Below are positions 3,545 through 27,101 of a stretch of DNA of 64,000 bases, piece by piece; the first letter of the stretch is position 1, and each line of letters starts with the position of its first letter. A model generated the notes under the pieces. The model saw nothing but the letters and a program-made list of their open reading frames with translations, was not told the DNA's origin and did no database searches. A program made the position numbers and the translations under genes. Where the stretch lies: positions 558,001-622,000 of the forward strand of contig NHZP01000024.1 of NCBI GenBank assembly GCA_003313425.1, given 5' to 3'. The DNA comes from Pseudopyrenochaeta lycopersici. Taxonomy: Eukaryota > Ascomycota > Dothideomycetes > Pleosporales > Pseudopyrenochaetaceae.

Positions 3545-6500
3545 TCACGTCTTTGAGCTTTCTGCAAACACATCATCCTCATCACCAGTTGCCTCACTTG
3601 TAACACTTTCATGCAAGCTGGGCGTCTTGTCCTTCTTGCCAATACGCTTGATAGATCCCCAGCTAAGAAGACTGTTCTTGTCCTTGGGTGTTCCAATGTT
3701 GGGGCTGTTGCCAACGCTTTCAGTGCTCCTTCCAATACTGAGGAAACCACCCGTCTCGTCCGCCTCGTCGGGTGTATTTGGCACTTCGCTTGACTTGCTC
3801 TTCGACAATAACGCATTCTTCTTGCTGAATGTGAGGAATTGATTGGTACTGCCTTTGCGTGTGAGCTTCTGCATAAACGATTCTTTGCCAACGGATCCAG
3901 TGTTCTCGGATGCAGCGTGGGAGATAGAGCGCTCAAGTGATTCGCGTGGCGAAGCTTCTGACACATCTGCCGTAGAGATTGATGGAGTGTCGCGTGACAT
4001 GCGCGAATCGTAGTGAGGTGACGTCGCATCCCTGAAGTCACCAGCATCAGACGCGGTGTGTTTGTCCTTCTCCTTGCGCGCAACTTTCTCCGCTCTCTCA
4101 GCCTTGGCTTTCTTCTCCTTTTCCTCTTTCTTCTCTGCTTTTTCTGCCTTCTTAGCTTCCTTTTCGGCAGCCTTCTCGGCCGCTCTCTTGGCTTTCTCCT
4201 CTTTGTCTTCCTCCGTCTTTTTGCCAAGCTGGAACATGGTGAAAGCTGCTGCTGCTGGATTCAGTTGTTTAGGCGGTGTAGGAGGAATGGGCGGTAGAGA
4301 TGATGTCGACGGTTGGGCCGCCATATGTGAGGCCGATGATTGAGGCCTGGTACCAATTGGTGCTTGAGTGGGCGATCGCGTGTTGGAAGGAAAGTCGAGT
4401 CGGTCATCATGTAGCATCTCTTCGTTGATCAAATTGACTGTGGACCCATGTTGGATTGAAGGCCGGCGGGAAGGCATCCTTGACCATGAAGTCGTGTTTG
4501 TGTTGTTAATGCTCCAATCGACACCGAGCGGGCTACTTCGAGCACCAAAAGCATCCACAGACCAACCAAACCGTGTCTGACTCTCGGTAGAAGGTCGAGG
4601 CAAAGGCATTCCTTCTCCCGATTTGGTTGAACCCTGACGCGGAGATCCTGGTCTTTCTAGCCCTAGGACTGATGTCAGCCATGGGTCACCCTTTGTACCA
4701 AACATGTTGAACGGCCGCTTACGCGTAGCCACATGTTGGGGACTGCTGGATGATTCCACAGGCTGAGTCTTGGTGCGTATGAATGAATCGTACCACGCGC
4801 CTTCAGAGTGACTCCCTCGGCGTCGTGCGCTCCCAATCGCGTCCAGTCCGTGCTCTTGTCGAGGTAGTGACTGGCTCTGGGACGGCTTCAGGGAGCCCAG
4901 AGTTGGTCCCTCGTCAGAGAAGGTTTTCCCACGCGCTCTGTTGAGTCCAAAAAGACCGCCAAAGCGACTGGCCGGAGGATTCATCATGAATGAACTCGAC
5001 GTGGATCGTATGGACCGCTTGTCGCTGTCTATATTATTGTTTTCGGTACTTGGATAGAACTGTAATTCGCCAGCACTCTCTCTAGGACTTGCAAAGGCAC
5101 TTGGAGAGCGACTTTGCGGTGAGACGGGCGAACTTGGATCTTGGTCGCGGTCTAGAGTACCGATTGCTCCGAGACCTGGTAGAACATTTCTAAGATTGGG
5201 TGATGGATCTAGTGACGAAGCCCGAGGTGGGCCTAAATCATCGTCGTCCTCGGCATCTGTCAATCCCAAATCATCACCGAAGAGACCTGCTGGGAGGAGA
5301 GCACCAGCCGTTGGACTCATGGGAGCGCCGCCGGTCAAGCTTTCCATATCCGCCTGAGAGAATGTAAAGCTGTGTGTTCGGGGAGGCAATGCCATGCCAT
5401 TGACCGGGTTGAAATAAGGCGTGACAGAGGCAAACGATGGTGAAGAGGTTGTTGGAATGCTGTTGAATGGAGCGGACGAAGTGTGCACAAAACCACCAGT
5501 AGCCGCAGAAAGAAGGCCTTCACGCATGCTGAGAGGGCGTGCACGCTGACTGTTTCTTCTGACAGGGCCCATTTCAGGGACGGATGGCCCAGAAAAGAGT
5601 TGTGGCTGGCTCATGCGACGCTGCTGCATAAACTGCAGTCTGTTGGAGACCTCGTGATTCACTCTCTCGGCTTCGGTGAACAGCGTCCATGCCTGGGCAT
5701 ACTGTTGTTGCAGGAGGCCGAGGGTCATCCTCCACCTATTGTCCTCTTCTCTTTCTGCGTTGTCGGTACCATCTGGGGCTTCACCACCCTCTTGGCCTGC
5801 TTCCAGCTGCTGCCTCTCCTCCTCAAGAGCCTTGATCTGGACTCCCTTGTCGCGGATTGCTTCCTCCAAGCTCTTGTTCGTCTGGATCTCTTCGGCATAT
5901 TTGTCTTTCGCAATCTGCATTCTTTTCTCGGAAGCGGCCTGGTACTCGATTTGCTCTTCCTGGATCCTTTCAGCGGCTTCGCGCAGCTCAACGGCCTCGC
6001 GTGTCCATTTTGCAACATCGTCTTTCAACTTCTTCCTTTCCGCTTCTTTCTGGCGCAATACCTTCTCTTGTTGTGCGCGCCTCGTTTGCGCTGCTGCGTT
6101 TTGTCGTTCAAGATTCGCCACTTCCTTCCTTAGATCTCGACTGGCATCCTCCTTTTCTTTCAAAGCAGCCTTTTTCTCGTCGCGCTTATCCACCAAGACA
6201 GCCTTTTGCGTCACAAAATCCTGGTCTTCGTCCTGGATCTGCTTTTCCATGTCGTCCAGCTCGCGCCGAAGACCAGCAAGCTTCTCCGTCAACTGTCTGA
6301 TAGAATCAGTCTTCTCTACCGCCTCCTGCGCCGAGCGTGCTTGGTCGAGGGTTTGAGATGCTGGCGAGTTTCTCCTTCCCATGTCTGGCCGCATCCTTCG
6401 CGAGGTGCTATTGCTGTGCTCTCGGGTCATGATGGGCGCAACGTATGGCGTCGCAACATCGGCAAGGCTTTTGTTCGGGCGAATGATAGGCGTGGGCGTG

Positions 6501-7973: not shown

Positions 7974-10238
7974 ATGAACTACGTGCGATCCATAACCGGC
8001 AGCGTGTCCAAGGGCTGGAACTCAATCAACCCGGCCACCCTCAGCGGCGCCATCGATGCCATTGTCGTAGAGCGCGAAGATGGCAGCCTCGCCTGCTCGC
8101 CCTTCCATGTGCGCTTCGGCAAGTACCAGATCCTGCGACCCTCGGACAAGAAGGTGGAATTCAGGGTAAATGACCAACTGCAAGACTATTCTATGAAGTT
8201 GGGCGAGGGCGGCGAAGCCTTCTTCGTCTTTGAAACCTCGGCTGCCATTCCCGCCGAGATGCAGACCTCGCCCATTGCGTCACCCATAGCCAGCCCCGAA
8301 CAGAAGCCCATTGAGCTGCCCTCAGATCGCGCCTTCGACGACCCAGAACCCCTCGATCTAGATGGCAGCGCTGAAGCAAGGAGGAGGGGGCGCATGTCCA
8401 TGTCAGTCCCGCCGACAGACAGCATATACCATGGGGCCGAGTTGGAGCGACCAAAGTCGGGCGACTGGTCAGGCTTTCACATGCACAGGGCGAACACCGA
8501 CGACCTTCTTCCTTCCACGAAAGAGGGTTTTGCAAAGGAATTCGAGGAGACGGCCGAGCATGGGCCGCTCCAGATCAGCAAAGAGGATGCCACAGCATGG
8601 AATCGGGTCACTCGATCCACAAGCCCGCCTCCAGTGTCTGCCACCGAGGCCCTCGCTCGAGCCATTAAACTGTCGAAGAAACTCTTCACTTCGAACATTC
8701 CAAACAAAGTCACCGACAGTGGAGACCTCGAGCTGGATATGACGGGATACAAGAGCAGCGAGGAGGATGCCTTGCGCGCCGAGGTCATTGCCAGGAAGAT
8801 TCTTTCCGATGAACTTGCTGGCGATTACGACATTGGTGCATTGATCGGCGCAGACGAGAATGGAAACCTGTGGATTTATAGCAGTGAAGAAGCCAAAGCA
8901 GCAGCCATGCAGAAAACATCGCTGAACATCCTGAACGAGGCCGCTCTTCGGTCATCCGATGCTGTATCAGATCCTGGATACCAAAGCGACAGTGGTCGAA
9001 GCGACGACTCGGGCGACTTCCCTCACATGCGTAGAGACTCGGATAGCGCCCTGGGACTGTCCGCGCCCCAGTCCCCAGAAGCTCGCAAGAGTGAGACTAG
9101 AAATTATGCGAAGACATTGCGCCTGACGAGCGATCAGCTCAAAGCGCTCGATCTGAAGCCTGGTGCGAATACTATGAGCTTCACAGTGAACAGGTCAACA
9201 TGCACTGCCTACATGTTCTACTGGAAGCATGACGTGCCCATCGTCATTTCTGACATTGACGGCACCATCACCAAGTCGGATGCTCTTGGCCATGTGTTGA
9301 ACATGATCGGTAGAGACTGGACTCACCAAGGAGTCGCGAAGCTGTATACTGACATTGTCAACAACGGCTACAATATCTTCTACCTCACAAGTCGTTCGGT
9401 GGGGCAAGCCGACACAACAAGAGCGTACCTCAACGGCGTCGTACAAGAGGACTACCGTCTGCCCAAAGGTCCTGTCATCATGAGTCCAGATCGCACAATC
9501 GCTGCTCTGCGTCGAGAGATCTACCTTAGGAAACCAGAGGTCTTTAAAATGGCTTGTCTTCGCGACATCATGCAACTCTTCGACAAGCCCGCACACCAGA
9601 CACCCTTTTATGCCGGCTTTGGCAATCGCTTTACAGACGCTCTGTCTTACCGCTCCGTCAACATCCCCTCCACACGCATCTTCACTATCAACTCCAATGC
9701 CGAAGTCAGCCTCGACGTGCTTTCGCTCAATTCCTACAAAACCGGGTACGCGAGTATGCGTGAGATTGTAGACCACTTTTTTCCGCCTGTGGGCTTATTA
9801 GTGCCTGCTGGGGGTGAAGCATATACAGATTTCAACTACTGGCGCGACCCACCCCTCGATATTGAGGACTTCACCGATAGCGAGGATGACGATGACGACG
9901 ACGATACAACGGAAGCGGCTAGTATCCGCAGTGAAGACGAAGGGTCAGAAGTCGGCGAGGATCTCGAGGCTAGCTATATGACACAGGACTCGCCCGACGA
10001 GACCGGACTGGAGGATTCCATCATCGAGTCTGTAGAAGGAGATGACTACGCAGAGGGCGAGGAATACGCTGACGAAGAGGATACGGAGGATGATGAGGAA
10101 GACGACGAGGATGAGGTTGACGAGCGCATCACACCGACAAAGGAACTTGTTGGCATCCATGGAGCCTCAGATGGCGTTGGGGCGTTGAGCGTGAAGGACT
10201 CGACACCAACGCCAAGAGCGAGTCCAAGGAGAAGGTAG
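7974..10238 (+). CDS. pah1: Phosphatidate phosphatase, lipin family (Pah1/Smp2/Ned1)
   Basis: A single-exon, 754-residue Mg-dependent phosphatidate phosphatase. It dephosphorylates phosphatidate to diacylglycerol and so controls triacylglycerol synthesis, phospholipid balance and nuclear membrane growth. The N-LIP domain occupies about residues 1-95, starting MNYVRSITGSVSKGWNSINP with the amphipathic membrane-binding helix. The C-LIP HAD-like domain starts near residue 385, and its catalytic DxDGT motif DIDGT is at 427-431, followed by ITKSDALGHV. Downstream PVIMSPDR and FYAGFGNRFTDALSY match lipin signatures. The C-terminus is a long acidic stretch (about 640-720) as in yeast Pah1. Regulation by phosphorylation of Ser/Pro sites between the two domains is known for the family and plausible here. 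The neighbour upstream is divergent. Confidence 0.96.
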   Translation: MNYVRSITGSVSKGWNSINPATLSGAIDAIVVEREDGSLACSPFHVRFGKYQILRPSDKKVEFRVNDQLQDYSMKLGEGGEAFFVFETSAAIPAEMQTSPIASPIASPEQKPIELPSDRAFDDPEPLDLDGSAEARRRGRMSMSVPPTDSIYHGAELERPKSGDWSGFHMHRANTDDLLPSTKEGFAKEFEETAEHGPLQISKEDATAWNRVTRSTSPPPVSATEALARAIKLSKKLFTSNIPNKVTDSGDLELDMTGYKSSEEDALRAEVIARKILSDELAGDYDIGALIGADENGNLWIYSSEEAKAAAMQKTSLNILNEAALRSSDAVSDPGYQSDSGRSDDSGDFPHMRRDSDSALGLSAPQSPEARKSETRNYAKTLRLTSDQLKALDLKPGANTMSFTVNRSTCTAYMFYWKHDVPIVISDIDGTITKSDALGHVLNMIGRDWTHQGVAKLYTDIVNNGYNIFYLTSRSVGQADTTRAYLNGVVQEDYRLPKGPVIMSPDRTIAALRREIYLRKPEVFKMACLRDIMQLFDKPAHQTPFYAGFGNRFTDALSYRSVNIPSTRIFTINSNAEVSLDVLSLNSYKTGYASMREIVDHFFPPVGLLVPAGGEAYTDFNYWRDPPLDIEDFTDSEDDDDDDDTTEAASIRSEDEGSEVGEDLEASYMTQDSPDETGLEDSIIESVEGDDYAEGEEYADEEDTEDDEEDDEDEVDERITPTKELVGIHGASDGVGALSVKDSTPTPRASPRRR

Positions 10239-10806: not shown

Positions 10807-12432
10807 TTAGTTACTGTCTTCAGCCTGAACTATATCGTCCGTCTCTACCTCTTCCTCAATAGTGGGCAAAACCTGATATTTCACTTTCTTGCCCATTCTC
10901 TTCAAGCACTTATCTGTATGCAACAAATGGCCTCTCTTCTGCCTCACAAAGCCCGCAAAACACGCTGCGCTCGTTGCAATCGCCCCGGCGCTGATGTAGA
11001 TGGGGATCTTGAAGTCTTCAGGCCGGTAGAAGATCATTGTGGTGGCAAAGGAGAAGAGTTCGAAGAGGTTTTGGAGGGACATCTCGATGGCGGAGAAGGA
11101 GCCTCGTGTTGCTGATGGTGCGTCTTCTTGTACGAGATACTGGACGGAGAGGTCGAATCCCCATAGTCCAAGACGACTGAGACATACGCCTAGGACTAGA
11201 GCGCCGCCAGCTAACTTCGCCTTCTCCCCGGCCCAGGAGAACAGGCTGACTGCGAGGGCAATGGAGATCAGCTGCTCGTTGATGAACCACAGGCCGGATC
11301 GCACGGCACCGATCTTGCTCATAAGCCATGGAGCTACGCAGGTAGCCGAGAGCTCTAGGATAACGGACACAAGGCGCATGATGGAGACATGCGTACTCGT
11401 AAAGCCCATTGTGAGGAGGTATGTCGTCATCTGAGATGCGAAGCTGAGGACTGTGAGATAGAGGAGGGATAGCGAGAACGACGCGAGGAATGCCGGGTTT
11501 AGGACGTAGTCTTTCCATGGTCGAACGGTAGACGCGATACTAGCTACCAAGGAGGGCGATGAAGGAGCCAGTGCGGTATATTGTCCTTGTTGTTGCTCGG
11601 TCATGACCGCACCTCCGAGCTGCCTGCCTTCTCTGAGCTCTGGTACCGCATCATATACCTGTGCAATGGCGTAGTACTCGACCAATACGCTGACTGCATT
11701 CTGCGCAAATACGACCCAGATTGCCACTTTCGTGGAATATCCATCGAGCAGACCAATGCCAACCGGAGCGATGAGCTTGCAAATTAGGTCAATCCTTCTC
11801 ATAGCGCCGTTCAGCTCTTGCCGATCTACACTGAGGCTGTCAGATACGACAATAATCCAGTCTCTTTCTACTGAAACAGTGTTGGCGACGAAGGCGAGTT
11901 TCTCGAAACATGCCAGGGTGACGCTAGCGAAGAATAAGACATATGTGACAAACCCCTTCTCTTTACTTCCATTTAACATAGAAACAAGGATTAGGCATGA
12001 AGCTGCAACAGAGAGTCTTTGCCATACGATGCTCTGCCTGACAATATACAGCCTATCTTTTCGATCAACTTGGTTACCTATCCATGACCCTAGAATCGCT
12101 GCGGCTGCTGAGCGAAACAAAGCATAACAAGAGGCGAAGAACAATGTTCCTGGGAAGATAGCAGCCAGGAAGATAACAGCGCCGAATTCAAATGTGCGGG
12201 CATTCCACGTCGACAGCGTGTGCGATAGGTAAAGTTTCCATAGTAGTGGCCTCGCCGATCTTATTTGCACTGAGGTGGGGTAGCCATTTGGTGACGATGG
12301 CGGGGTACTGGCTGGTGAGCTTGAAGCCGTTTCGCTCGTCATTGTGGTGGATGATTCATTGGCAATGGAGGTAAAGTCTGGAGACAAAGAGGACACATTG
12401 TGACGAATAGAGGGCGCGAGATCATGAGACAT
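10807..12432 (-). CDS. Ferroportin-like iron exporter (SLC40 family)
   Basis: A single-exon, 541-residue polytopic membrane protein with about ten to twelve hydrophobic segments. It matches the ferroportin/IREG1 family: SHTLSTWNARTFEFGAVIFL opens the transport domain, GNQVDRKDRL corresponds to the first cytosolic loop, and VERDWIIVVS followed by LNGAMRRIDLICKLIAPVG aligns with the conserved RDW...RRID...LAP region of animal ferroportin. The first 60 residues are Ser/Thr-rich and cytosolic. Family function is export of Fe(II) from the cytosol across the plasma or an organelle membrane. The fungal substrate and location are unproven. Length is close to the animal protein (about 570). It is divergent from the ATPase gene at 12955. 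Confidence 0.88.
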   Translation of the reverse strand: MSHDLAPSIRHNVSSLSPDFTSIANESSTTMTSETASSSPASTPPSSPNGYPTSVQIRSARPLLWKLYLSHTLSTWNARTFEFGAVIFLAAIFPGTLFFASCYALFRSAAAAILGSWIGNQVDRKDRLYIVRQSIVWQRLSVAASCLILVSMLNGSKEKGFVTYVLFFASVTLACFEKLAFVANTVSVERDWIIVVSDSLSVDRQELNGAMRRIDLICKLIAPVGIGLLDGYSTKVAIWVVFAQNAVSVLVEYYAIAQVYDAVPELREGRQLGGAVMTEQQQGQYTALAPSSPSLVASIASTVRPWKDYVLNPAFLASFSLSLLYLTVLSFASQMTTYLLTMGFTSTHVSIMRLVSVILELSATCVAPWLMSKIGAVRSGLWFINEQLISIALAVSLFSWAGEKAKLAGGALVLGVCLSRLGLWGFDLSVQYLVQEDAPSATRGSFSAIEMSLQNLFELFSFATTMIFYRPEDFKIPIYISAGAIATSAACFAGFVRQKRGHLLHTDKCLKRMGKKVKYQVLPTIEEEVETDDIVQAEDSN

Positions 12433-12954
12433 GGGATGCGGAAGCCCAGATGTCCGAGGTGGCCTTTGACCTGGACCGTGATCGGCAGTTCGAGCTGCAT
12501 CCGGCTATTCTTGCTCGGGCAATATACAGCCTGGTCATCGTACTATCGTGTTGTGGAAGTCATCGGTCCTACCCTTGGGCGCTGGAGAATTAAGTTGTCT
12601 TCCTAACATGATCCATTGGTGGAACAAGGTGTGGTAGTCGTTTGATTGACCCGTAGCTACGTTGGCGACCTCAAACTCACACTAAAGTGCAGCACTAAAC
12701 CGAGGGTCTTCGGAAAACCTCCGGACGCCGCGTCGTGCAGGCTAAGCTTTGGACTCCACTTACACAGTTGCACGCTCGTGCACCGGTCTCAAAGATGGGG
12801 TTCTGTCTCTTCGTCTCTCAATTGATGACACTCGGAAGTTCGGCACGCTGTCAGACGGCTAGCCAAGTGTGGAGTCCCCGACATTCAAGCATCAGCCTTC
12901 GTGGCACATGAAAGCTATTGTCGTTCTATTGTGACTTGCGACACGTAACAACGA
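12433..12954. other. Divergent intergenic region (ferroportin / ATPase gene)
   Basis: 522 bp between two divergent ATGs, presumed to hold both promoters. I see no iron-regulatory motif that I would defend. Confidence 0.4.
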
Positions 12955-14593
12955 ATGCCACGTTCTTTTCAAAGTATTCGGCGAGGTGTGTACGCCCAAT
13001 TGGCTGCTGTAGCTACCGGAAAGCTAACGTTTCGAAGGATGGATCCTGCTGCCTCTCGGCAGACGCCCAGCTCGCGCCCGAGCCTCACCACTACTCTTCC
13101 AACAGCCATTGAACAGCAATGGGCTGTCTGACCGTCCCGTGAAAGGCGACCGACCCAACGAAGATAAGCAAGAGAGAGGCAAATTCGCGAGGAGTGTTCT
13201 GGAAGGCAGCACGGTAGCCCTTATATCGCTTTTTGGTCTAGGCCTTGGCGGCTATGCATACAGCCTGTTCTACAAAAGGACGGTCAGAAATAAGATTGAA
13301 AACGCATTCGCGACGGGTTACAGCTCACAAGAACGCGTTGCATTGGGCCGCATCTCATATGGCACAGAGCCGGACAAAATACAAGAGATCGTGGAGAGGG
13401 AGTACTGGGTGCCTAGAGTGGAACAAAATGAAATCAATGATATTGTGAGCGGCAAGACTAGAGGACGGTATCACCTCATCATTGGTGAGAGAGGGACAGG
13501 CAAGCGGGCACTGCTCTTGGAGGCAATGAGAAACGTCAATGGTGATGGTATCGCTATGCTGGAAGCGCATAATGATCTGGAAGTCTTCCGAACACGACTG
13601 GGCAAGTCAATTGATTATGAATTCCACGAAGACTACATCGGCGGACTTTTCAGCATCAGAGGCCCGCGGGATAGCACACCCTTGTTAGATATCGAAAGAG
13701 CATTGAATCAGCTAGAGAAAGTAGCTTTGTCCATGAGGAAGAGGCGCGGCAAACCCCTTCTAATGGTCATCAACAATATTCACCTGTTCAAGGACGACGA
13801 AAGCGGCATACACCTCTTGGAGATTCTGCAACAACGAGCAGAGATCTGGGCTGGCAATGAGCTTGTAACCACCGTCTTCACATCTGACGAGTTTTGGACT
13901 CTCGAGCGACTGATCCCGCACGCGACCAATATGAACGTCATGAATATCAGAGACGTACGTAAAGATGTGGTCGACAATGCGCTGAGGAAGTACCGTGCCC
14001 GATATCATAACGAAGACGTGCCACAAAGCATTCTAGACGAGATCTTCTCTAAAGTTGGCGGCCGCTTAATCTTTTTAAACCAGGTCGCAAAGTCAAAAGA
14101 TATGTTGGATACATGCAGGCACATCAATCGAAGAGAAAAATCTTGGTTCCTCAACAACTGTTGGATCCTTGGGGATTCTATGGACGACGACGTGGAGGAA
14201 CAGCAGAAGTTCTGCGCCGCAGCTATAATCCTCGCCCGCGCCCTCGTATTGCGCGAAGACCGCGACCCACTCAAAGACCAATTTACTCTCCCCGAGATTC
14301 CCCTCCACGAAGCCCGCCAGATCATAACGCGCGCCGACTTTGTACAACCCTTCGACCACATCAACATCGTCCACATCGATGCCCATGGAATGGTGCGAGC
14401 CGACTCTGTCGCCATGCAGAATGCATTCCGGGAGATTATACAGGAGGAGGGCTTTGAGGCCCATTTGAAGGCTACTCTGAACAGGTTGGATGAGTTGGAA
14501 AGCTTGGCGAGGACGAGAGAAGTTGCGATGAGGAAGGTGCCTGATAGGAGTGGAGGGATTGTACCTGTACAAACATACTGCGCCAAATTCTAG
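12955..14593 (+). CDS. Mitochondrial membrane P-loop (AAA-like) ATPase, uncharacterised
   Basis: Two exons, 12955-12989 and 13063-14593, with a 73 bp intron (donor GTACGC, branch GCTAAC, acceptor CGGCAG), giving 521 residues. The downstream frame has no good ATG near its beginning. The 35 bp first exon supplies one and yields MPRSFQSIRRGVRPARARAS, an Arg/Ser-rich, acid-free mitochondrial presequence. A transmembrane helix lies at about 57-78 (STVALISLFGLGLGGYAYSL). Walker A is GERGTGK at 153-159. The Walker B position reads LLMVINNIH at 244-252, with Asn where an acidic residue is expected. The C-terminal half is helical, like the lid of STAND/Orc-type ATPases. A role at the inner mitochondrial membrane is inferred, and I know no named orthologue. 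Confidence 0.75.
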
Positions 14594-18427: not shown

Positions 18428-19702
18428 TTATGGCCGCTGAGACGTTAACCCTAACAAATTGCACTCGAAAGGAAATTCAGACAAAACCTCTACTCCATTC
18501 TCAGTAATTAGAACTTGCTGCTCGAGTTTCACACCTTCCTTTCCACCTTCCTCACCGATGTAGGCTTCCACACAAAGCACCATTCCAGGCTCAATAACGC
18601 CGTCATAACCAGCCTCAGGGAAATCCCCACGATGGTAAAGGTATGGGTACTCGCACGCCATGCCGCATCCATGCGCGGAAACGAAATAGCGGTTGGCCCA
18701 AAACTTATCAGGGATATCGTATACCTCGTCGGCGTACTCGCGGAACGTCATTCCTGGCCTCAATATACCAATGTTATGTGCAACTTGCTCATACGCAACC
18801 TTGTACAGCTCTTTTTGCTCATCGGTAGGGGCATTCGGCCCTGAGTGGAAAGTTCGTGAAAAGTCACAGTAATATCCATGACAGCCAACAACGTCGGTAT
18901 CAAGCGCAATGAGCTCATTTTCGCGGATTCTGTAGCTTGCTGATTCTTGGAACCATGGATTTGTGCGTGGTCCCGCGCTGAGCAGGCGCGTTTCACAGTA
19001 ATCGCCATTTTGCTCTACGACAGATTTATGAAGTATTGACCAGAGTTCATTTTCTGTAAGCCCTGGACGGACCGCGTCGCGAATTTTGCCAACAGCGCGC
19101 TCGGTGGCTCGTAATGATGCGATGACGCATTTGACCTCTTCGGGCGATTTGATGGCTCGGGCGATCTCTAGGGGTTTCTGTGCATCCACTATGTTGAGAC
19201 CATACTCCTTCAAACCTATGGCCACATTGGCGTTCATACGTTCCAACCCCAGCGTCGCCCCTTTCCCACACAGCTCAGTGATCATATCGCCCATCTCCGA
19301 CACCCACTCACGTTCTCGCACCTCTATCTTAGGTCCTGCACTCGTATGGCTAGCCGTTTTGGCAATACGAACCTCGTCAATAGTCTCCAGTCCAGCCGCG
19401 AGGTGCGCGCATCCAACGAATTCAAAAAGAATGGAGCGATTTGCAGTAACCACGAGATAACGCGATGCCTGATTTCGCGAAGTATGGATCTGCATGTTAC
19501 GGGCGCCGGTGGTGTATCGAATGTTGACTGGGTCGGATACTATCATAGCATCAATGTTGAATTTCGCCATCTGGCGTCGTACCCGCTCGAGTCGATACAA
19601 ACGAACTGCTTTCAGGTCGATACCTACACTTTCAGGGGCTTGATCCAAAAGCGCCACATTGGAAAGATCGCTCCGTTCAGCATGCCAGTCAAAGTGTGCC
19701 AT
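18428..19702 (-). CDS. DddP-type M24 (creatinase-fold) protein, candidate DMSP lyase
   Basis: Single exon, 424 residues, M24 pita-bread fold. The N-terminal creatinase domain (about 30-180) includes IRYTTGARNMQIHTSRNQAS and LETIDEVRIAKTASH. The metal ligands in the C-terminal domain are Asp268, Asp270, Asp280, His344, Glu379 and Glu394. These spacings (2, 10, 64, 35, 15) equal those I recall for DddP of Ruegeria lacuscaerulensis (D295, D297, D307, H371, E406, E421). The DTD ligand pair differs from ordinary Xaa-Pro peptidases. DddP cleaves dimethylsulfoniopropionate to DMS and acrylate, and homologues in Aspergillus and Fusarium are known. The residue matching the recalled catalytic Asp377 is Cys350, so lyase activity is uncertain. 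Another M24 hydrolase function is the alternative. Confidence 0.8.
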   Translation of the reverse strand: MAHFDWHAERSDLSNVALLDQAPESVGIDLKAVRLYRLERVRRQMAKFNIDAMIVSDPVNIRYTTGARNMQIHTSRNQASRYLVVTANRSILFEFVGCAHLAAGLETIDEVRIAKTASHTSAGPKIEVREREWVSEMGDMITELCGKGATLGLERMNANVAIGLKEYGLNIVDAQKPLEIARAIKSPEEVKCVIASLRATERAVGKIRDAVRPGLTENELWSILHKSVVEQNGDYCETRLLSAGPRTNPWFQESASYRIRENELIALDTDVVGCHGYYCDFSRTFHSGPNAPTDEQKELYKVAYEQVAHNIGILRPGMTFREYADEVYDIPDKFWANRYFVSAHGCGMACEYPYLYHRGDFPEAGYDGVIEPGMVLCVEAYIGEEGGKEGVKLEQQVLITENGVEVLSEFPFECNLLGLTSQRP

Positions 19703-20746: not shown

Positions 20747-22724
20747 CTAAAAAGATGAAAACTGAGATATTTTGCAGAATTTTGGCTGTAACACACCCAC
20801 AGTTCCATGATCTAATATTCCTGAGCCAGTCCCGAAAGATTCCAGCAAAATTGCGACTAAGGCGGGAAAAATGCCAAGGGTAGGAAACCAGGTCTCTCCA
20901 TGGCATTCCGGAATATGACGCATTGCACTCGAAGGTTTCTCAGATCCTGCACCACTAGGAGTCGGTGTGTGTGTCATAGACTCAAGAACGTCTGTCGCGA
21001 AGGCGAGCCCAGTGGTCGGTCCAGCAGTTTGATATGCAAGACACTGCGTAGCATTCAGAAGTGACTTACTCCATAGATCTTTCGAAAGATCCAGGAGCCC
21101 AAGTTCCAGACCCAACCCAGCAGCAATATCGAGGCTATAATCCACATGAGTAAGATTCTGAAATGCATCTTTGAACCTGACATCTGTGTCACTTCCAGCT
21201 GTGCAATTCGCACCCACATCATCAGTCGCCGTTTGAGTGACGGTCATGTTTACTTGCGGCAGGGACACATAGGGTCCACCATTGAAACCCACCCCGAGAA
21301 ATTTTAGGCCTGCTGTAATCTTTGGCTTGAGGCCCCCAACAATGCTGAATTGGAGATTAGAAGCGTTCGCCGAAAGAGGCTTTAGTGTCACTTCCGTTTC
21401 ATTGAATCCTTTTATGATGGAATCCTGCATTTCGGCGACATCGAGACGTGCTAGGGAGTTTGGCACCTAAAACGCCGTCAGCGTCGAAAGGAATTACTAG
21501 ACTCTACACAAGTGAGGTTTACCTTAACATCGAATCCGAAGCCTATGTCTACGGCCCCTTTTACCTGGATATCAACAAAGTAAGCCAGTGCAATGATGAT
21601 GCCGAAATATCCAATTTTGGGAATCTACAGTGAAAATTGGAGGTCTGGTACGCAATCTACATCAGTTTCTCGAGCTTACGTTAAAGCCGACGGGCGTCAA
21701 TGCCTGTAGGTCGTATTCTTTTTCGAATTTAGTGGCCAGTGTGGCTTTCAAACCAATCGACATTTCAAAGCCATTGAGCTCCAGCTGGGCAAAACCGCTT
21801 TTCACAGGGTCATCTTCTCCCTAAGAACCACGCGCCAATATCTAATCGAAATCTTCCAGATGTTGTAATCATTTCGCCTTTTGCGCTACAATTGGCACAA
21901 CCGAGAAGAATAGGATTGAAAGATGGGGCCGAATCTTCGAAGAAAGTTGTGTTGATATGCTCAAATCCCAAATCCGTTACATTTCTTGTATCCTCGGTCT
22001 GTGTGACTACAGACTCCGTTGGGGTTGCGGATACACCAGTCGGTCGGCCGACTGCTGTGCGTGTCGGATCTCGTGTTGAAGTTTTAGTAATTCTGCGGAA
22101 GAGACGATTATGTCTATGATGGACATAGCGTTCATTTGTGTGACCAAAATCGATTGTTATAGTTTGAAATTCTTTCTCTAAAACACTTTCTATCAGGCTA
22201 AATCCAATCCGAAAGGATTCATCGAAGAAGGAGAGGCTTTCGACTCTGGTACGCTCAGCATTGGTAGTGCAGACGTTGAAGATCCTATACCTATACACTG
22301 TGTGTGTACCACTGTCCCCGCAGCTGTGGTGTGAAGAAATGAGCAGCCCACCGACTAACGATGTACATGCGTTTCTAGCCTTATTATAAGTCTCTGCGCT
22401 TCGCACAGTGACTGTCATCATCGATCCAATGCATTCGACCTTTTCCAAATGATGATCAAAGTCTTCCAGGAGGAGGGTCGGCCGATCTGCCTCAAGCCGG
22501 ACATGAGCAGACATGGTGGTTTCGCCCGTACGATGTTCAGCATATGCAAGCTTGACATTCTGCCCAAAGTAAAAGTCATCGCTTCGGGTAAGGATATCAC
22601 GATGCCTCTTTGCCGCTTTCAGGAAGCTGTGATGTAGTAAAAACGAAGGTGCTTCAAACTCCACCAAGGACAACGAAGCGTATGCGAGGTGGCTGGAAGC
22701 CAGTAGGAGTAATGCTAAGTGCAT
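20747..22724 (-). CDS. Secreted DUF7029/DUF7223 protein with a one-base frameshift
   Basis: Four pieces on the minus strand: 21680-22724, 21523-21624 and 20747-21466, with introns of 55 and 56 bp, and a frame break inside the first piece. The start at 22724 gives a signal peptide (MHLALLLLASSHLAYA); the frame is open further upstream. The DUF7029-like N-terminal part shows FGQNVKLAYAEH, HVRLEADRPTLLLEDFDHHL and ECIGSMMTVTV. After GCANCSAKGEMITTSGRF the frame ends at 21810, yet a shifted frame continues with GEDDPVKSGFAQLELNGFE and leads cleanly through both introns into the DUF7223-like half (VPNSLARLDVAEMQ). Treating GGG near 21819-21821 as GG restores a 621-codon frame. No intron bridges the break. 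Either a recent inactivation or a sequence error. Confidence 0.65.
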
Positions 22725-23325
22725 AATTTCCTGAATAGCCTCGAGTGAGAAAACTGATGCAGATACAAAGAGGTCGATGGTTGAGGACAAGACCAAAAAC
22801 AAGGCCTCCAGATATGAGCCTGAATCGATATAGAATGACCCGACCAGCCTTCTTGTACCCATTTCTTTGTATATCGTTTCATTAAACTTAGAGTTAAGGC
22901 TCTCAGACTGCGCCTCAGGTTCTGCCTCGCGGGCTACCGTTGCGGTCCCAACTAGGGAAGCTCCCTGTATTGTGTATGCAGATTACAAGCATCTTCTCCA
23001 ATTAACACACCGCTTAAGTGAGAGCTTTCTTGGACCTTGATCCATAATCCGTTAAACTTAGGGCTAGGCTGTGAGGCTGCGTTTCAGCCTGCGATGTGCA
23101 CGTTGTCGGCGCAGCACTACACATGCAGTGTAATATTGGTAGAATCCTCTTAGTTGACCTATTACGAAGGGCTACTGGAGATGAGCGGCGCTGCTGATGT
23201 GAACTGGCGGCCCTCCAAGTGGCTATATCGCCACGTTTTCTAGAACTATTGGATTATATTCATTCATAATCTAACATAGGGAACCTTTAATACTTATGGC
23301 ACGCGTGTTTTGATGCTTTTAAAAA
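22725..23325. other. Intergenic region with a diverged direct repeat
   Basis: 601 bp between tandem minus-strand genes. It contains two similar stretches at about 22885-22935 and 23050-23095, both starting TTAAACTTAG and continuing with an AGGCT/CTGCG-like core. No ORF with features. Confidence 0.4.
22885..23095. repeat. Diverged two-copy direct repeat
   Basis: Copy 1 is around 22885-22935 and copy 2 around 23050-23095. Shared elements in order are TTAAACTTAG, AGGCT, CTGCG and TCAG. Boundaries are approximate because the copies differ at many positions. It could be a relic of a short element. Confidence 0.35.
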
Positions 23326-25119
23326 CTAAGATCCAATACTTCCGAGCAAATCCATCATCTGCTGTTGTCGCCGCATTCGCGTTCTTGAGGTGGACTCTGT
23401 GGGTTCTATTGGCTTGGACATCGGGGCCAAGGTCAGGCCACTTGGTTGTGTAGGTTTTTGTGGGCATTCTCCCATATCACTCTGAAAAGAGCCAGGCTGC
23501 CTTGGCGGACAGGTTTCGAGCGCTATAGATGCGGAGAATTGCGAAGGTCGCGCCTGAGTCCATTGAGAATCAGTCGAACTCGAACCCTGTAATTCTGACG
23601 GTTGCTTAGAGAATTGTTGCAGCCCGGCAGCTGTAACACCCAGCTGAGCCATGCTTACTACCGATGTTCTCTTAGGGAAGGAATCATGGAGACTTGACGT
23701 AGACAGGGAGGCTGGAAGCTGGTGGGATTTATAGAGAGGTTCGCTAAACGCATGCAATGGAGCAGGTCTCCGTTTTGGCATAGCTGGCAGCTCTGGAATA
23801 GACCTTCTTTGCTCATATACGTTCACTTTACTTTCCTGGGTGTAGGGTCCGGGGTTATGACTCGATGCCCGGTTTGGTCGAGGAGGATATCCTGGTGGTG
23901 GCCCTGGGTCGTTGCATGGCAGTTCAACAGCAAAACTTAAGTCTCCTAGTAATTCAACTACAGCGTTTGTGTCATCTTTCTTTGATAGAGGCATCGTACT
24001 CGAAAATTGAGGAGCAGCACAGTACTCATATGGATTGACAGGACCATACGCGTTTGTGGCACTCAAGGATACAGTATCCCCTGGCAACTCTGAAACGGTC
24101 ATGTTGCTCGGTGTTAGTTGGTAGGCCCAGATGCCCTTAGGCTCGGAACATGCTTCATCTGATCGCTTTATATCTACTTCGGTCTTTGAAAGTTGGCCAG
24201 GGTTTTGATCGGGAGAGTTCGCGTGGTAACGCCGCTTATCTTCTGTGTAGAAATAGTTTGCTTGAGTGGTAGACTGGACCGCTGAAGCGTACGTCGGAGG
24301 CGGACTGTATGGACACGACACCTCGGAAGATGGAGATTTATAGGGCTCGAGTCGGTTTGTGCAGTGACTAGGGAGGTGACTGGCTCCTTTCTTTTGATAT
24401 CCATCTGAGGAACTGAGGTGTGTCTCGTTGGAGCTAGTGGCTGTAGTGTCTTCGATGTTCGAGGCTTTCTGAAACTCTTTGGCAGTTGAGTCTCCTGTAA
24501 ATGAAATTAGCTTTACATGGTCGCAAGATGAGAGTATCAAGGAACAGCTGGTGAACATACTTGTATCCGCCTGCACATTGGCAGGTACTGTCCATACACT
24601 CTTCCTCTTGTGTCTGGAGATGATGTCGTCGAAGTATGTTGTGTCTTTATACGTTGGAGGCTCAGCGGTGGCTGGTATGTCTTCTAATCGGATCAAGTAA
24701 CTAAGAACGTTTGAAAGTTGCTGATGACATGTCATCAGTTCTGTTTTCCGATTCAGTAATTTCTCGTGGTCGTTGAAAACCCAGCGAACGCGGGTGTTGA
24801 ATTGAATTGACCCAGTTGACTGCTGCTCAGCACGAGCGCGTTCGACCCATTTGCCGATCTCGTTCAAAGCAGACTTAGTGTTGTTGATCGCACTTCTGAC
24901 CCATGGAAGTTTCCCAGGGGTACTAGCAAGTTTGCTTTGCACTGAAGCAAGTCCTAGCAATCGTTCCACCTCGTTGAGGTCGTCGCGTACGACATGTATC
25001 GTGCGCACAAATACTTCGTTTTCGCTGCCCACTTCAGCAATGCGGACAGCCAGATCGGCAAACTTGAATGCGCTGCCAACGCTGGCAAAAATGGCCCCTG
25101 CACTAAAGGGTTCACACAT
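23326..25119 (-). CDS. STAND/NLR-type N-terminal domain protein without NACHT
   Basis: Two exons, 24561-25119 and 23326-24494, separated by a 66 bp intron (donor GTATGT, branch GCTAAT, acceptor TTACAG), giving 575 residues. The intron length is a multiple of three and has no in-frame stop, so a retained form would be 597 residues. Residues 1-160 form the helical domain found at the start of many fungal STAND and ankyrin proteins: MCEPFSAGAIFASVGSAFKF, then VVRDDLNEVERLLGLA, WVERARAEQQSTG and HQQLSNVLSYLIRL. The rest is Ser/Pro/Gln-rich and disordered, with PPPGYPPRPNRASS. No NACHT, NB-ARC or repeat domain follows. A signalling adaptor is an inference from family context only. Confidence 0.72.
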   Translation of the reverse strand: MCEPFSAGAIFASVGSAFKFADLAVRIAEVGSENEVFVRTIHVVRDDLNEVERLLGLASVQSKLASTPGKLPWVRSAINNTKSALNEIGKWVERARAEQQSTGSIQFNTRVRWVFNDHEKLLNRKTELMTCHQQLSNVLSYLIRLEDIPATAEPPTYKDTTYFDDIISRHKRKSVWTVPANVQADTSMFTSCSLILSSCDHVKLISFTGDSTAKEFQKASNIEDTTATSSNETHLSSSDGYQKKGASHLPSHCTNRLEPYKSPSSEVSCPYSPPPTYASAVQSTTQANYFYTEDKRRYHANSPDQNPGQLSKTEVDIKRSDEACSEPKGIWAYQLTPSNMTVSELPGDTVSLSATNAYGPVNPYEYCAAPQFSSTMPLSKKDDTNAVVELLGDLSFAVELPCNDPGPPPGYPPRPNRASSHNPGPYTQESKVNVYEQRRSIPELPAMPKRRPAPLHAFSEPLYKSHQLPASLSTSSLHDSFPKRTSVVSMAQLGVTAAGLQQFSKQPSELQGSSSTDSQWTQARPSQFSASIALETCPPRQPGSFQSDMGECPQKPTQPSGLTLAPMSKPIEPTESTSRTRMRRQQQMMDLLGSIGS

Positions 25120-25778: not shown

Positions 25779-27101
25779 TCACGCGGCAACCTCCTTATCG
25801 ACCAATACCCTGGAAGGGTTTAGCACCTGCCCCTGATCACCAATTATCTGTACCAAAGCTGGAAATACAATGAAGCCACCATGTGCGTTGGAAAAGTCGA
25901 ACCGGAACGAGCTCGGCTGAGAGAAAAGAAGAAACGCGAAGTTCGCCGACCGTGTCAATATCATGTCCAGATTCTTGCGGCGCTGACCACCATCGACACT
26001 TCCTTGAACGAAAGGTGTCAAGATTGAATCGAGCTCCGTAATAGTATTTGCAAATGCCTGAGCACGGCGGGGGTCTTGCGCATTTTTCCCGAATTGCTGT
26101 TGCAGCAGTGCTCCAGTGATCGTTTTCCATTTGCTGAATAATGTCGATTGAGCTGTAGAATCTGCGTCAGCTTTCGACCGATGTGAGTTCAGGTGCTGAG
26201 AATACTTACTAGTGTTTCCACTGGCACTATCAGAAATGGACTTGGCAACTTGTGCTACTTCTGCAGGAAGCAAACTAGCGATCCGCTCACCAGTGCACCT
26301 CGACAAGATAACCCATCCAATGACGAGCCGAAGAGCCTCATATCTAGTCTGCGGATTCGATAAAGCGCTTGCAAGTATCGAGGTGCTCAAACCTGTTGCG
26401 GTCGCAAGTTCTCGCAAGCCGGACTCATCCAACACAGCCGGAGAGATTGGTGTCGTATGATAATAAGTCCGGACGTGGTTTTTGATATTATCCCGAATCT
26501 TAGAAGCCTCGTCCGTGATAGTGTCGTCTGCCACAGGCTGAGGTAGCAAGTCATCCACATTGCTCGCAATCGCGGTGGTAACCGCCAGGGGCGCTTTCTC
26601 TGGTGTCGCTGTGTAGCCGTTGTGAGGAATATGGTGCGTCTGGTAAGCAGTAATTTGCCTTTTCCTTTGGCGGCGAAATAAGACGAAGAACACAAGGCCT
26701 GCGATCAACACTCCCGCAAGCAGCATACCGATCGCCACTCCTGCAACGGCACCGCCAGAGATCCCATTTTTACCTGAAATGCTGGATGATGTTGGTGCAG
26801 AACTCGTTGTTACTGGCTCGGGGCCGCTGGTAGTATTTGGGGCAGGTGGTACAACTGGCGCCGTAGGTGAAGATGATGGTATGCTTGGATTTACGCCTGT
26901 AGGCACGCTTGTCCCAGGGTTGCTTCCTGCTGTTGACTTTGCGGTTGCAGCCGCGGCCGAAGAAGCCGATGCCAGTAAAGCTTGAGGGCATGCAACTTCA
27001 ACCCGCTCACCATTGACGTTGTTGGTTCCAATGCATACATTGTTGCCGCCAGGGTTTATTGAAGTCCAGGTAACGTTTTCTAATTGACGTCTTAAGGCCA
27101 T
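25779..27101 (-). CDS. Single-pass membrane protein with Ser/Thr-rich ectodomain
   Basis: Two exons, 26210-27101 and 25779-26152, joined across a 57 bp intron (donor GTAAGT, branch GCTGAC, acceptor CTACAG), giving 421 residues. The intron is a multiple of three without a stop, so retention would add 19 residues. Residues 1-110 are Ser/Thr/Pro-rich with a Cys pair (VCIGTN and VACPQ). A transmembrane helix follows at about 116-142 (AGVAIGMLLAGVLIAGLVFF), then a basic stop-transfer RRQRKRQ. This is a layout shared with Wsc/Mid2/Skg6-like fungal membrane proteins. The roughly 280-residue cytosolic part is helical and unrecognised. No N-terminal signal peptide is visible, so a type III topology or a missed upstream exon is possible. 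Function unknown. Confidence 0.7.
   Translation of the reverse strand: MALRRQLENVTWTSINPGGNNVCIGTNNVNGERVEVACPQALLASASSAAAATAKSTAGSNPGTSVPTGVNPSIPSSSPTAPVVPPAPNTTSGPEPVTTSSAPTSSSISGKNGISGGAVAGVAIGMLLAGVLIAGLVFFVLFRRQRKRQITAYQTHHIPHNGYTATPEKAPLAVTTAIASNVDDLLPQPVADDTITDEASKIRDNIKNHVRTYYHTTPISPAVLDESGLRELATATGLSTSILASALSNPQTRYEALRLVIGWVILSRCTGERIASLLPAEVAQVAKSISDSASGNTSKYSQHLNSHRSKADADSTAQSTLFSKWKTITGALLQQQFGKNAQDPRRAQAFANTITELDSILTPFVQGSVDGGQRRKNLDMILTRSANFAFLLFSQPSSFRFDFSNAHGGFIVFPALVQIIGDQGQVLNPSRVLVDKEVAA

Follow-up and report, generated by a model that had tools for sequence, protein, structure and literature searches.

What reaction is carried out by a fungal protein that has every metal ligand of the dimethylsulfoniopropionate (DMSP) lyase DddP, together with a cysteine in the column of that enzyme's favoured catalytic aspartate? 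The question is raised by an open reading frame of Pseudopyrenochaeta lycopersici at positions 18428–19702 (minus strand) of the 64,000-nucleotide stretch analysed here (contig NHZP01000024.1; hereafter the window). The frame is a complete coding sequence, with an ATG start, a stop codon and no interruption, for a protein of 424 amino acids that has an M24B fold by prediction and that we place in a Gly-type sister family of DddP. Peptidase_M24 (6e-33) and Creatinase_N are its Pfam matches, and its top NCBIfam model is DddP (NF043017), with 293.3 bits, below the curated cut-off of 600. The solved structures that match it best by sequence in HMMER are the RlDddP entries and RdDddP (4rzy, E 1.1e-67; 4b28, E 2e-65). 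The predicted structure that we used came from a mixed 120-row alignment, an earlier model from 24 close homologues having been set aside with residues 345–359 at a predicted local distance difference test score below 50. A search of the fungus's own genome, with introns ignored, returned a single other match, an M24 protein with 29% identity over part of the query.

All six metal ligands described for DddP in PMC4108388 have counterparts here, at the residue numbers and with the gaps (2, 10, 64, 35 and 15) that an earlier note had read from the DNA: Asp268 (DddP Asp295; 18899–18901), Asp270 (Asp297; 18893–18895), Asp280 (Asp307; 18863–18865), His344 (His371; 18671–18673), Glu379 (Glu406; 18566–18568) and Glu394 (Glu421; 18521–18523), all on the minus strand, as are the residues given below. 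In HMMER alignments to RlDddP 4rzy and RdDddP 4b28 the six line up without exception, and HGCGMACEYP sits on HGVGLCDEWP, which puts Cys350 (codon TGC; 18653–18655) in the Asp377 column, as the note had proposed; structure entry 4s01 (D377N) has its Asn in that same column. This match of the ligands and of Asp377 with Cys350 goes far beyond chance. The protein also has the NPWF loop common to DddP (residues 248–251; 18950–18961) and Tyr339 (18686–18688) in the column of DddP Tyr366, the residue that PMC4108388 treats as the alternative base to the favoured Asp377.

A Gly-type family beside DddP

To define the relatives of this protein, we examined the best 120 of at least 7941 matches from a protein search in which at least 7998 candidates were scored. 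The closest among them is a Pyrenochaeta sp. protein (P0001; 87% identity). Other ascomycetes are represented by Fusarium, Aspergillus, Talaromyces, Penicillium, Colletotrichum, Cercospora and further genera, and the bacteria, mostly alphaproteobacteria where named, show 70–75% identity. The name Fusarium oxysporum stands on two distinct members (P0024 and P0059), perhaps from different strains. When these 120 were read together with the window protein, the Asp377 column held Gly 119 times and Cys twice, and an enlarged set of 240 rows (226 distinct), drawn from best-hit lists and thus skewed to close relatives, gave Gly in 224 of the 226 and Cys in the window protein and P0001 only. Across the same set Asp268, Asp270, His344, Glu379 and Tyr339 are invariant, Asp280 and Glu394 are present in 225 with one gap each, Glu351 and Pro353 are conserved in 225 or 226, Cys346 is present in 211, and position 251 of the NPWF loop is either Phe (219) or Tyr (7). 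The usual motif around the Asp377 column is HGCGMTGEYP.

The family is not confined to fungi. Scanning bacterial and archaeal genomes yielded at least 551 relatives, and the carriers among the best 80, which we took as loci, include Rhodobacteraceae, Rhizobiales, Roseibium, Halomonas, Pseudomonas, Burkholderia, Streptomyces and Pseudonocardia. In the family of Paraburkholderia diazotrophica the gene was present in 3 of 150 genomes surveyed, a number too small for enlarging the set of neighbourhoods described below. A Mameliella genome holds a Gly-type gene, a DddP with 77% identity and a third paralogue together, and among 142 genomes sampled from the class to which a Mameliella genome belongs, 27 gave a DddP-like match at E 1e-30. 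Beside the family of the window protein stand two more Gly-type lineages (L093, L097 and L127), with the motifs HGVGMNGEYP and HGVGMHGE(T/K)P. A Rhizobiaceae metagenome-assembled genome (L045) carries a Gly-type gene and a 42% identical paralogue 5.7 kb apart (4897–6162 and 11819–13171), and in one genome of ~2.7 Mb (G096) nine DddP-like matches occur, with several grouped closely on one contig (C7). In the open-access literature searched we recognised no description of the Gly-type family, and this sister family of DddP has no name so far.

We then asked where the family falls among M24 proteins. The main tree comprised 93 rows, and divided them into 78 DddP-like rows and 15 other M24 rows at a branch with support of 100; the latter were taken from a Pfam M24 search, which also supplied 2 of the 78, and are not individually named. 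DDDHEE is present in 78/78 DddP-like rows and NPWF in 70/78, the remainder having NPW plus another residue, and the Asp377 column is divided among Asp (37), Asn (1), Gly (38) and Cys (2). Because all 78 carry it, most with no assigned function, the DDDHEE spacing is not a specific mark of lyases. The Asp and Asn rows, DddP included, lay on one side of a branch with support of 96, 84 and 99 in trees of 93, 82 and 39 rows, respectively. The Gly and Cys rows did so with support of 77 (82 rows) and 99 (39 rows), and formed several separate branches in the 93-row tree; the position of the root is unsure in the 93- and 82-row trees because the outgroup branches are long. When 14 rows of the family were forced into one clade with 4 DddP rows, in a test made on 39 of the 93 rows, the log-likelihood fell by 159 and the constraint was rejected (approximately unbiased test, p-AU 5.3e-70). 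The DddP rows in these trees are bacterial. By its sequence, then, the window protein belongs to the DddP-like group, outside the DddP clade sampled and apart from the ordinary M24 peptidases sampled.

These distributions also change how Cys350 is to be understood. The deep feature of the group is the split between Asp and Gly, with Cys350 a late change that arose from Gly on one fungal twig, since Gly is the state in 224 of the 226 members and Cys occurs in the window protein and P0001 alone. The phrase "Cys at the catalytic Asp", with which the earlier note had summarised the protein, is therefore misleading as history, and we rejected a replaced catalytic aspartate as the origin of Cys350, the family state being Gly.

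The same trees bear on the possibility that the protein is an ordinary Xaa-Pro aminopeptidase or dipeptidase, a reading suggested by the Pfam matches and by many source records, in which family members are called "Probable Xaa-Pro aminopeptidase P". Placement among Xaa-Pro aminopeptidases, the outcome that the note had set against its own assignment, was looked for and did not occur in the trees of 93, 82 or 39 rows; the protein falls on the side of DddP, away from the other M24 rows sampled. In addition, as we read the alignment, the places of two M24 histidines are taken by Phe251 and by Cys350, the latter position being Gly in the family. DddP is stated in PMC5395565 to exchange these two histidines for Asp and Phe, and the same text gives the Val-Pro activity of RlDddP, which has the same NPWF loop, as not measurable. 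With both histidines absent and the tree position as it is, we consider a peptidase identity very improbable and have ruled it out.

Candidate substrates and a proposed catalytic base

What might a DddP-like enzyme without Asp377 do? Our favoured reading, which we hold tentatively and at somewhat less than even odds, is a dinuclear-metal enzyme that uses Tyr339, and not Asp377, as base to cleave a small quaternary-ammonium or sulfonium zwitterion. Such an M24B (pita-bread) enzyme would hold two metal ions that bind the zwitterion, with its carboxylate and its quaternary-ammonium or sulfonium head, and would break a C–N or C–S bond. Tyr339, possibly with a metal-bound hydroxide, would be the most likely base because the DddP base Asp377 and both peptidase histidines are absent. 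The analysis itself establishes the predicted fold, the ligand residues, the position in the trees, the loss of Asp and His, and a trend among the bacterial neighbours; metal binding and the identity of the metals, as well as the substrate class, the bond broken and the role of Tyr339, are inferred. Of the two options left by the earlier note, a DddP fold recruited for another substrate fits somewhat better, given a Gly-type family outside the Asp clade and betaine-type genes beside some bacterial members; a DMSP lyase with altered chemistry fits less well, and draws on the identity of a fungal DddP discussed below.

For the bacterial neighbourhoods we read up to 10 kb to either side of the gene at the 80 loci, using codon-based gene calls (calls based on length missed the family gene in 13/80). 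One LysR cluster lies directly upstream on the opposite strand in 43/80 loci; the single member scanned has GcvA and a choline-sulfate regulator as its best NCBIfam relatives, both below cut-off. Other neighbours include a binding protein related to a choline ATP-binding cassette (ABC) model (114 bits versus a cut-off of 379), a glucose–methanol–choline (GMC) oxidoreductase that passes a choline-dehydrogenase subfamily cut-off (638 versus 605), an MttB-like protein (310 versus 525), a betaine/carnitine/choline transporter (BCCT) slightly below its subfamily cut-off (394 versus 408), and a flavin adenine dinucleotide (FAD)/GcvT protein whose best model is soxA (154 versus 1164) and for which "dimethylglycine-dehydrogenase type" is our own label. 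At one locus (L054) the neighbours are an ABC permease and an ATPase, of ProW/ProV type by eye only. In an Amylibacter metagenome-assembled genome (L011; 7416–16257), the family gene stands between MurD/FtsW-like and MurG/MurC-like genes, identified by eye from their first residues, and may lie within a cell-wall cluster.

With six choline/betaine-type proteins as queries, at least one type was found in 18/80 family loci versus 2/60 control stretches from nine family-carrying genomes (1/20 in a first control set), a difference with a one-sided Fisher p of 8.5e-4 that is only a guide, because the queries were picked from the very loci tested, some loci are closely related (eight belong to Burkholderia/Paraburkholderia/Caballeronia or Pseudomonas) and 11 of the 80 fall below 19 kb in length. 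By query, the counts in loci and controls were 6 and 0 for MttB, 5 and 1 for FAD/GcvT, 8 and 1 for the binding protein, 5 and 0 for GMC, 1 and 0 for BCCT, and 2 and 1 for the permease; the ABC ATPase did not discriminate (18/80 loci versus 15/60 controls). One of four of the neighbour clusters shares a directon with the family gene in 13/80 loci. Some bacterial neighbours thus suggest choline- or betaine-like substrates, and with them a wider betaine-like chemistry for the DddP scaffold.

Several observations weigh against the favoured reading. Besides the choice of queries and the relatedness of the loci, the 60 control stretches stem from only nine genomes; none of the six query types occurs in 62/80 loci; the GMC oxidoreductase was alone among ten neighbour proteins scanned against NCBIfam in exceeding a curated cut-off; and no betaine gene was found among the 19 scanned, besides the M24 frame, of the window's 33 open reading frames of at least 160 amino acids. 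Two more concern DMSP itself: marine roseobacter names stand on many bacterial carriers, and FgDddP, a fungal enzyme reported to be active on DMSP, may belong to the Gly-type family.

The family could accordingly consist of true lyases of DMSP, or of dimethylsulfoxonium propionate (DMSOP), that work without Asp377 and use Tyr339 as base, with FgDddP among them. PMC4108388 reports the formation of dimethyl sulfide from DMSP by FgDddP in E. coli, and puts identity to RdDddP at 32% for FgDddP and 50% for AoDddP. In our data, 53 family rows (a few of them identical) are 30.8–37.1% identical to RdDddP, with 52/53 at or below 34.8% and one row (L129) at 37.1%; the 29 fungal family rows, the window protein included, span 30.8–34.8%, and 30 Asp-type rows outside DddP proper span 37.4–52.9%. 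The published identity of FgDddP hence falls in the Gly-family range and below the Asp-type range, and this keeps the DMSP-lyase reading a serious one. Family members named Fusarium lateritium and F. oxysporum exist, and F. lateritium degrades DMSP according to PMC9629503, which cites Bacic and Yoch 1998; Tyr339, moreover, is present in the column of the alternative base. On the other side, PMC4108388 states that Asp377 is invariant in FgDddP, no F. graminearum or F. culmorum name appears among the best 120 of at least 7941 matches, members occur in Sinorhizobium, Caballeronia, Burkholderia, Pseudomonas, Streptomyces and Pseudonocardia records, and the Mameliella genome that owns a DddP retains its Gly-type gene as well. 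By published identity alone FgDddP thus resembles a Gly-family member, in conflict with its reported invariant Asp377. We judge the DMSP-lyase reading rather unlikely; if FgDddP does belong to the Gly-type family, the view of Asp377 now accepted for DMSP cleavage would have to be revised.

A probable bacterial origin of the fungal gene, and a divergent twig

How did the gene come to be in an ascomycete? The fungal rows form one clade in each tree (11 rows, support 99 in the 93-row tree and 97 in the 82-row tree; 6 rows kept, support 93, in the 39-row tree), and the bacterial row nearest to it is Sinorhizobium shofinae (support 97 with 93 rows and 94 with 39). This nesting of a single fungal clade among bacteria suggests that ascomycetes gained the gene by transfer from a bacterium, most likely an alphaproteobacterium. 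The genes flanking the frame on both sides are fungal (TFIID-31kDa, lipin, ferroportin, an AAA protein with a fungal C-terminal domain, and DUF155), so that the passage of a bacterial gene into fungi is the simplest account and contamination is unlikely. The ferroportin gene (FPN1, 2.4e-130) occupies 10807–12432 (minus strand) as a single open frame beside a lipin/Ned1 homologue at 7974–10238 (plus strand); a DUF7029 protein is encoded at 21810–22862 (minus strand), and the nearby frames at 20747–21466, 23326–25119 and 25779–27101 gave no Pfam match.

Within the fungi, the window protein and P0001 stand apart at otherwise conserved positions. We scored departures at 205 columns conserved in at least 95% of other members, and counted 14 in the window protein and 17 in P0001, as against 0–5 in 16 of 19 other fungal members checked; the other three have 6 (P0053), 9 (P0019) and 15 (P0024), and P0054 likewise has 15 among all 226. 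Nine changes are common to the pair: T96V, F119H, A134V, A327V, W328Y, Y340F, L341V, G350C and S380A, of which Y340F and L341V also occur in P0024 (F. oxysporum). Relative to the 224 members outside the twig, His119 (19346–19348) replaces Phe (219) or Tyr (5), Tyr328 (18719–18721) replaces an invariant Trp, and Ala380 (18563–18565), which adjoins ligand Glu379, replaces an invariant Ser; P0001 has the same residue in each case. At His73 (19484–19486) P0001 has Cys, and the 223 relatives outside the twig with a letter there have Phe (216) or Tyr (7), versus Trp in 35/37 Asp-type rows. Columns 73, 119 and 350 belong to a set of 19 by which the family can be told from the Asp type, whose residues at these three are Trp, Tyr and Asp.

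The load of departures could mark a decaying copy, a transferred gene that has lost its role in this fungus and whose odd residues reflect relaxed selection. Nevertheless, the reading frame is unbroken, identity between the two proteins is 87%, the ligands and Tyr339 are retained, the nine departures fall at the same columns in both, and P0024 and P0054 keep Gly350 despite 15 departures each. We regard decay as improbable. The replacement of Phe, Phe and Gly by His or Cys at 73, 119 and 350, in two sequences only, suggests a remodelled pocket, perhaps with a new metal or thiol site. The changed residues probably lie in the pocket, and the substrate on this twig may therefore differ from that of the family. 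A bolder proposal, which we offer as a long shot, is that the Gly-type proteins of bacteria and ascomycetes make up a distinct and widely distributed enzyme whose substrate is a quaternary-ammonium zwitterion (beta-alanine betaine, say, broken down into trimethylamine and acrylate), and that the His/Cys set of the twig (His or Cys at 73, His119 and Cys350) adds a thiol or third metal site, yielding new chemistry on the DddP scaffold.

Relation to known M24 enzymes

Neither the name Xaa-Pro aminopeptidase nor the sub-cut-off DddP match fits the family, and loose homologue searches could score Gly-type proteins as DMSP lyases. The family also provides a direct test of the base in DddP-type C–S cleavage, with Asp377 gone and the ligands and Tyr366 retained. 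Creatinase and the ectoine hydrolase DoeA are M24 enzymes that act on small zwitterions, and the predicted structure of the window protein matches theirs in fold, at 19–21% identity over the structural alignment. With the Xaa-Pro dipeptidases and aminopeptidase P (M24B) it shares the pita-bread fold and five of six metal ligands. It differs from them in the absent histidines, in its place on the other side of the tree, and in the extra ligand Asp270, a position taken by Gly or Ala in five DxDHEE-type outgroup rows. The Asp-type relatives of DddP (30 rows, function unassigned) are closer, in the same group and with the same six ligands and NPW loop, but they keep Asp (one Asn) in the Asp377 column and have higher identity to RdDddP. 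DddP itself (RlDddP 4rzy, RdDddP 4b28; NF043017) has the same DDDHEE ligands and spacing, the same tyrosine at Tyr366 and the same NPWF loop, whereas its Asp377 is Gly in the family and Cys in the window protein, its Trp95 column (RlDddP) is Phe in the family and His in the window protein, and its clade is separate, the window protein reaching less than half of the DddP cut-off and the fungal members staying at or below 34.8% identity to RdDddP.
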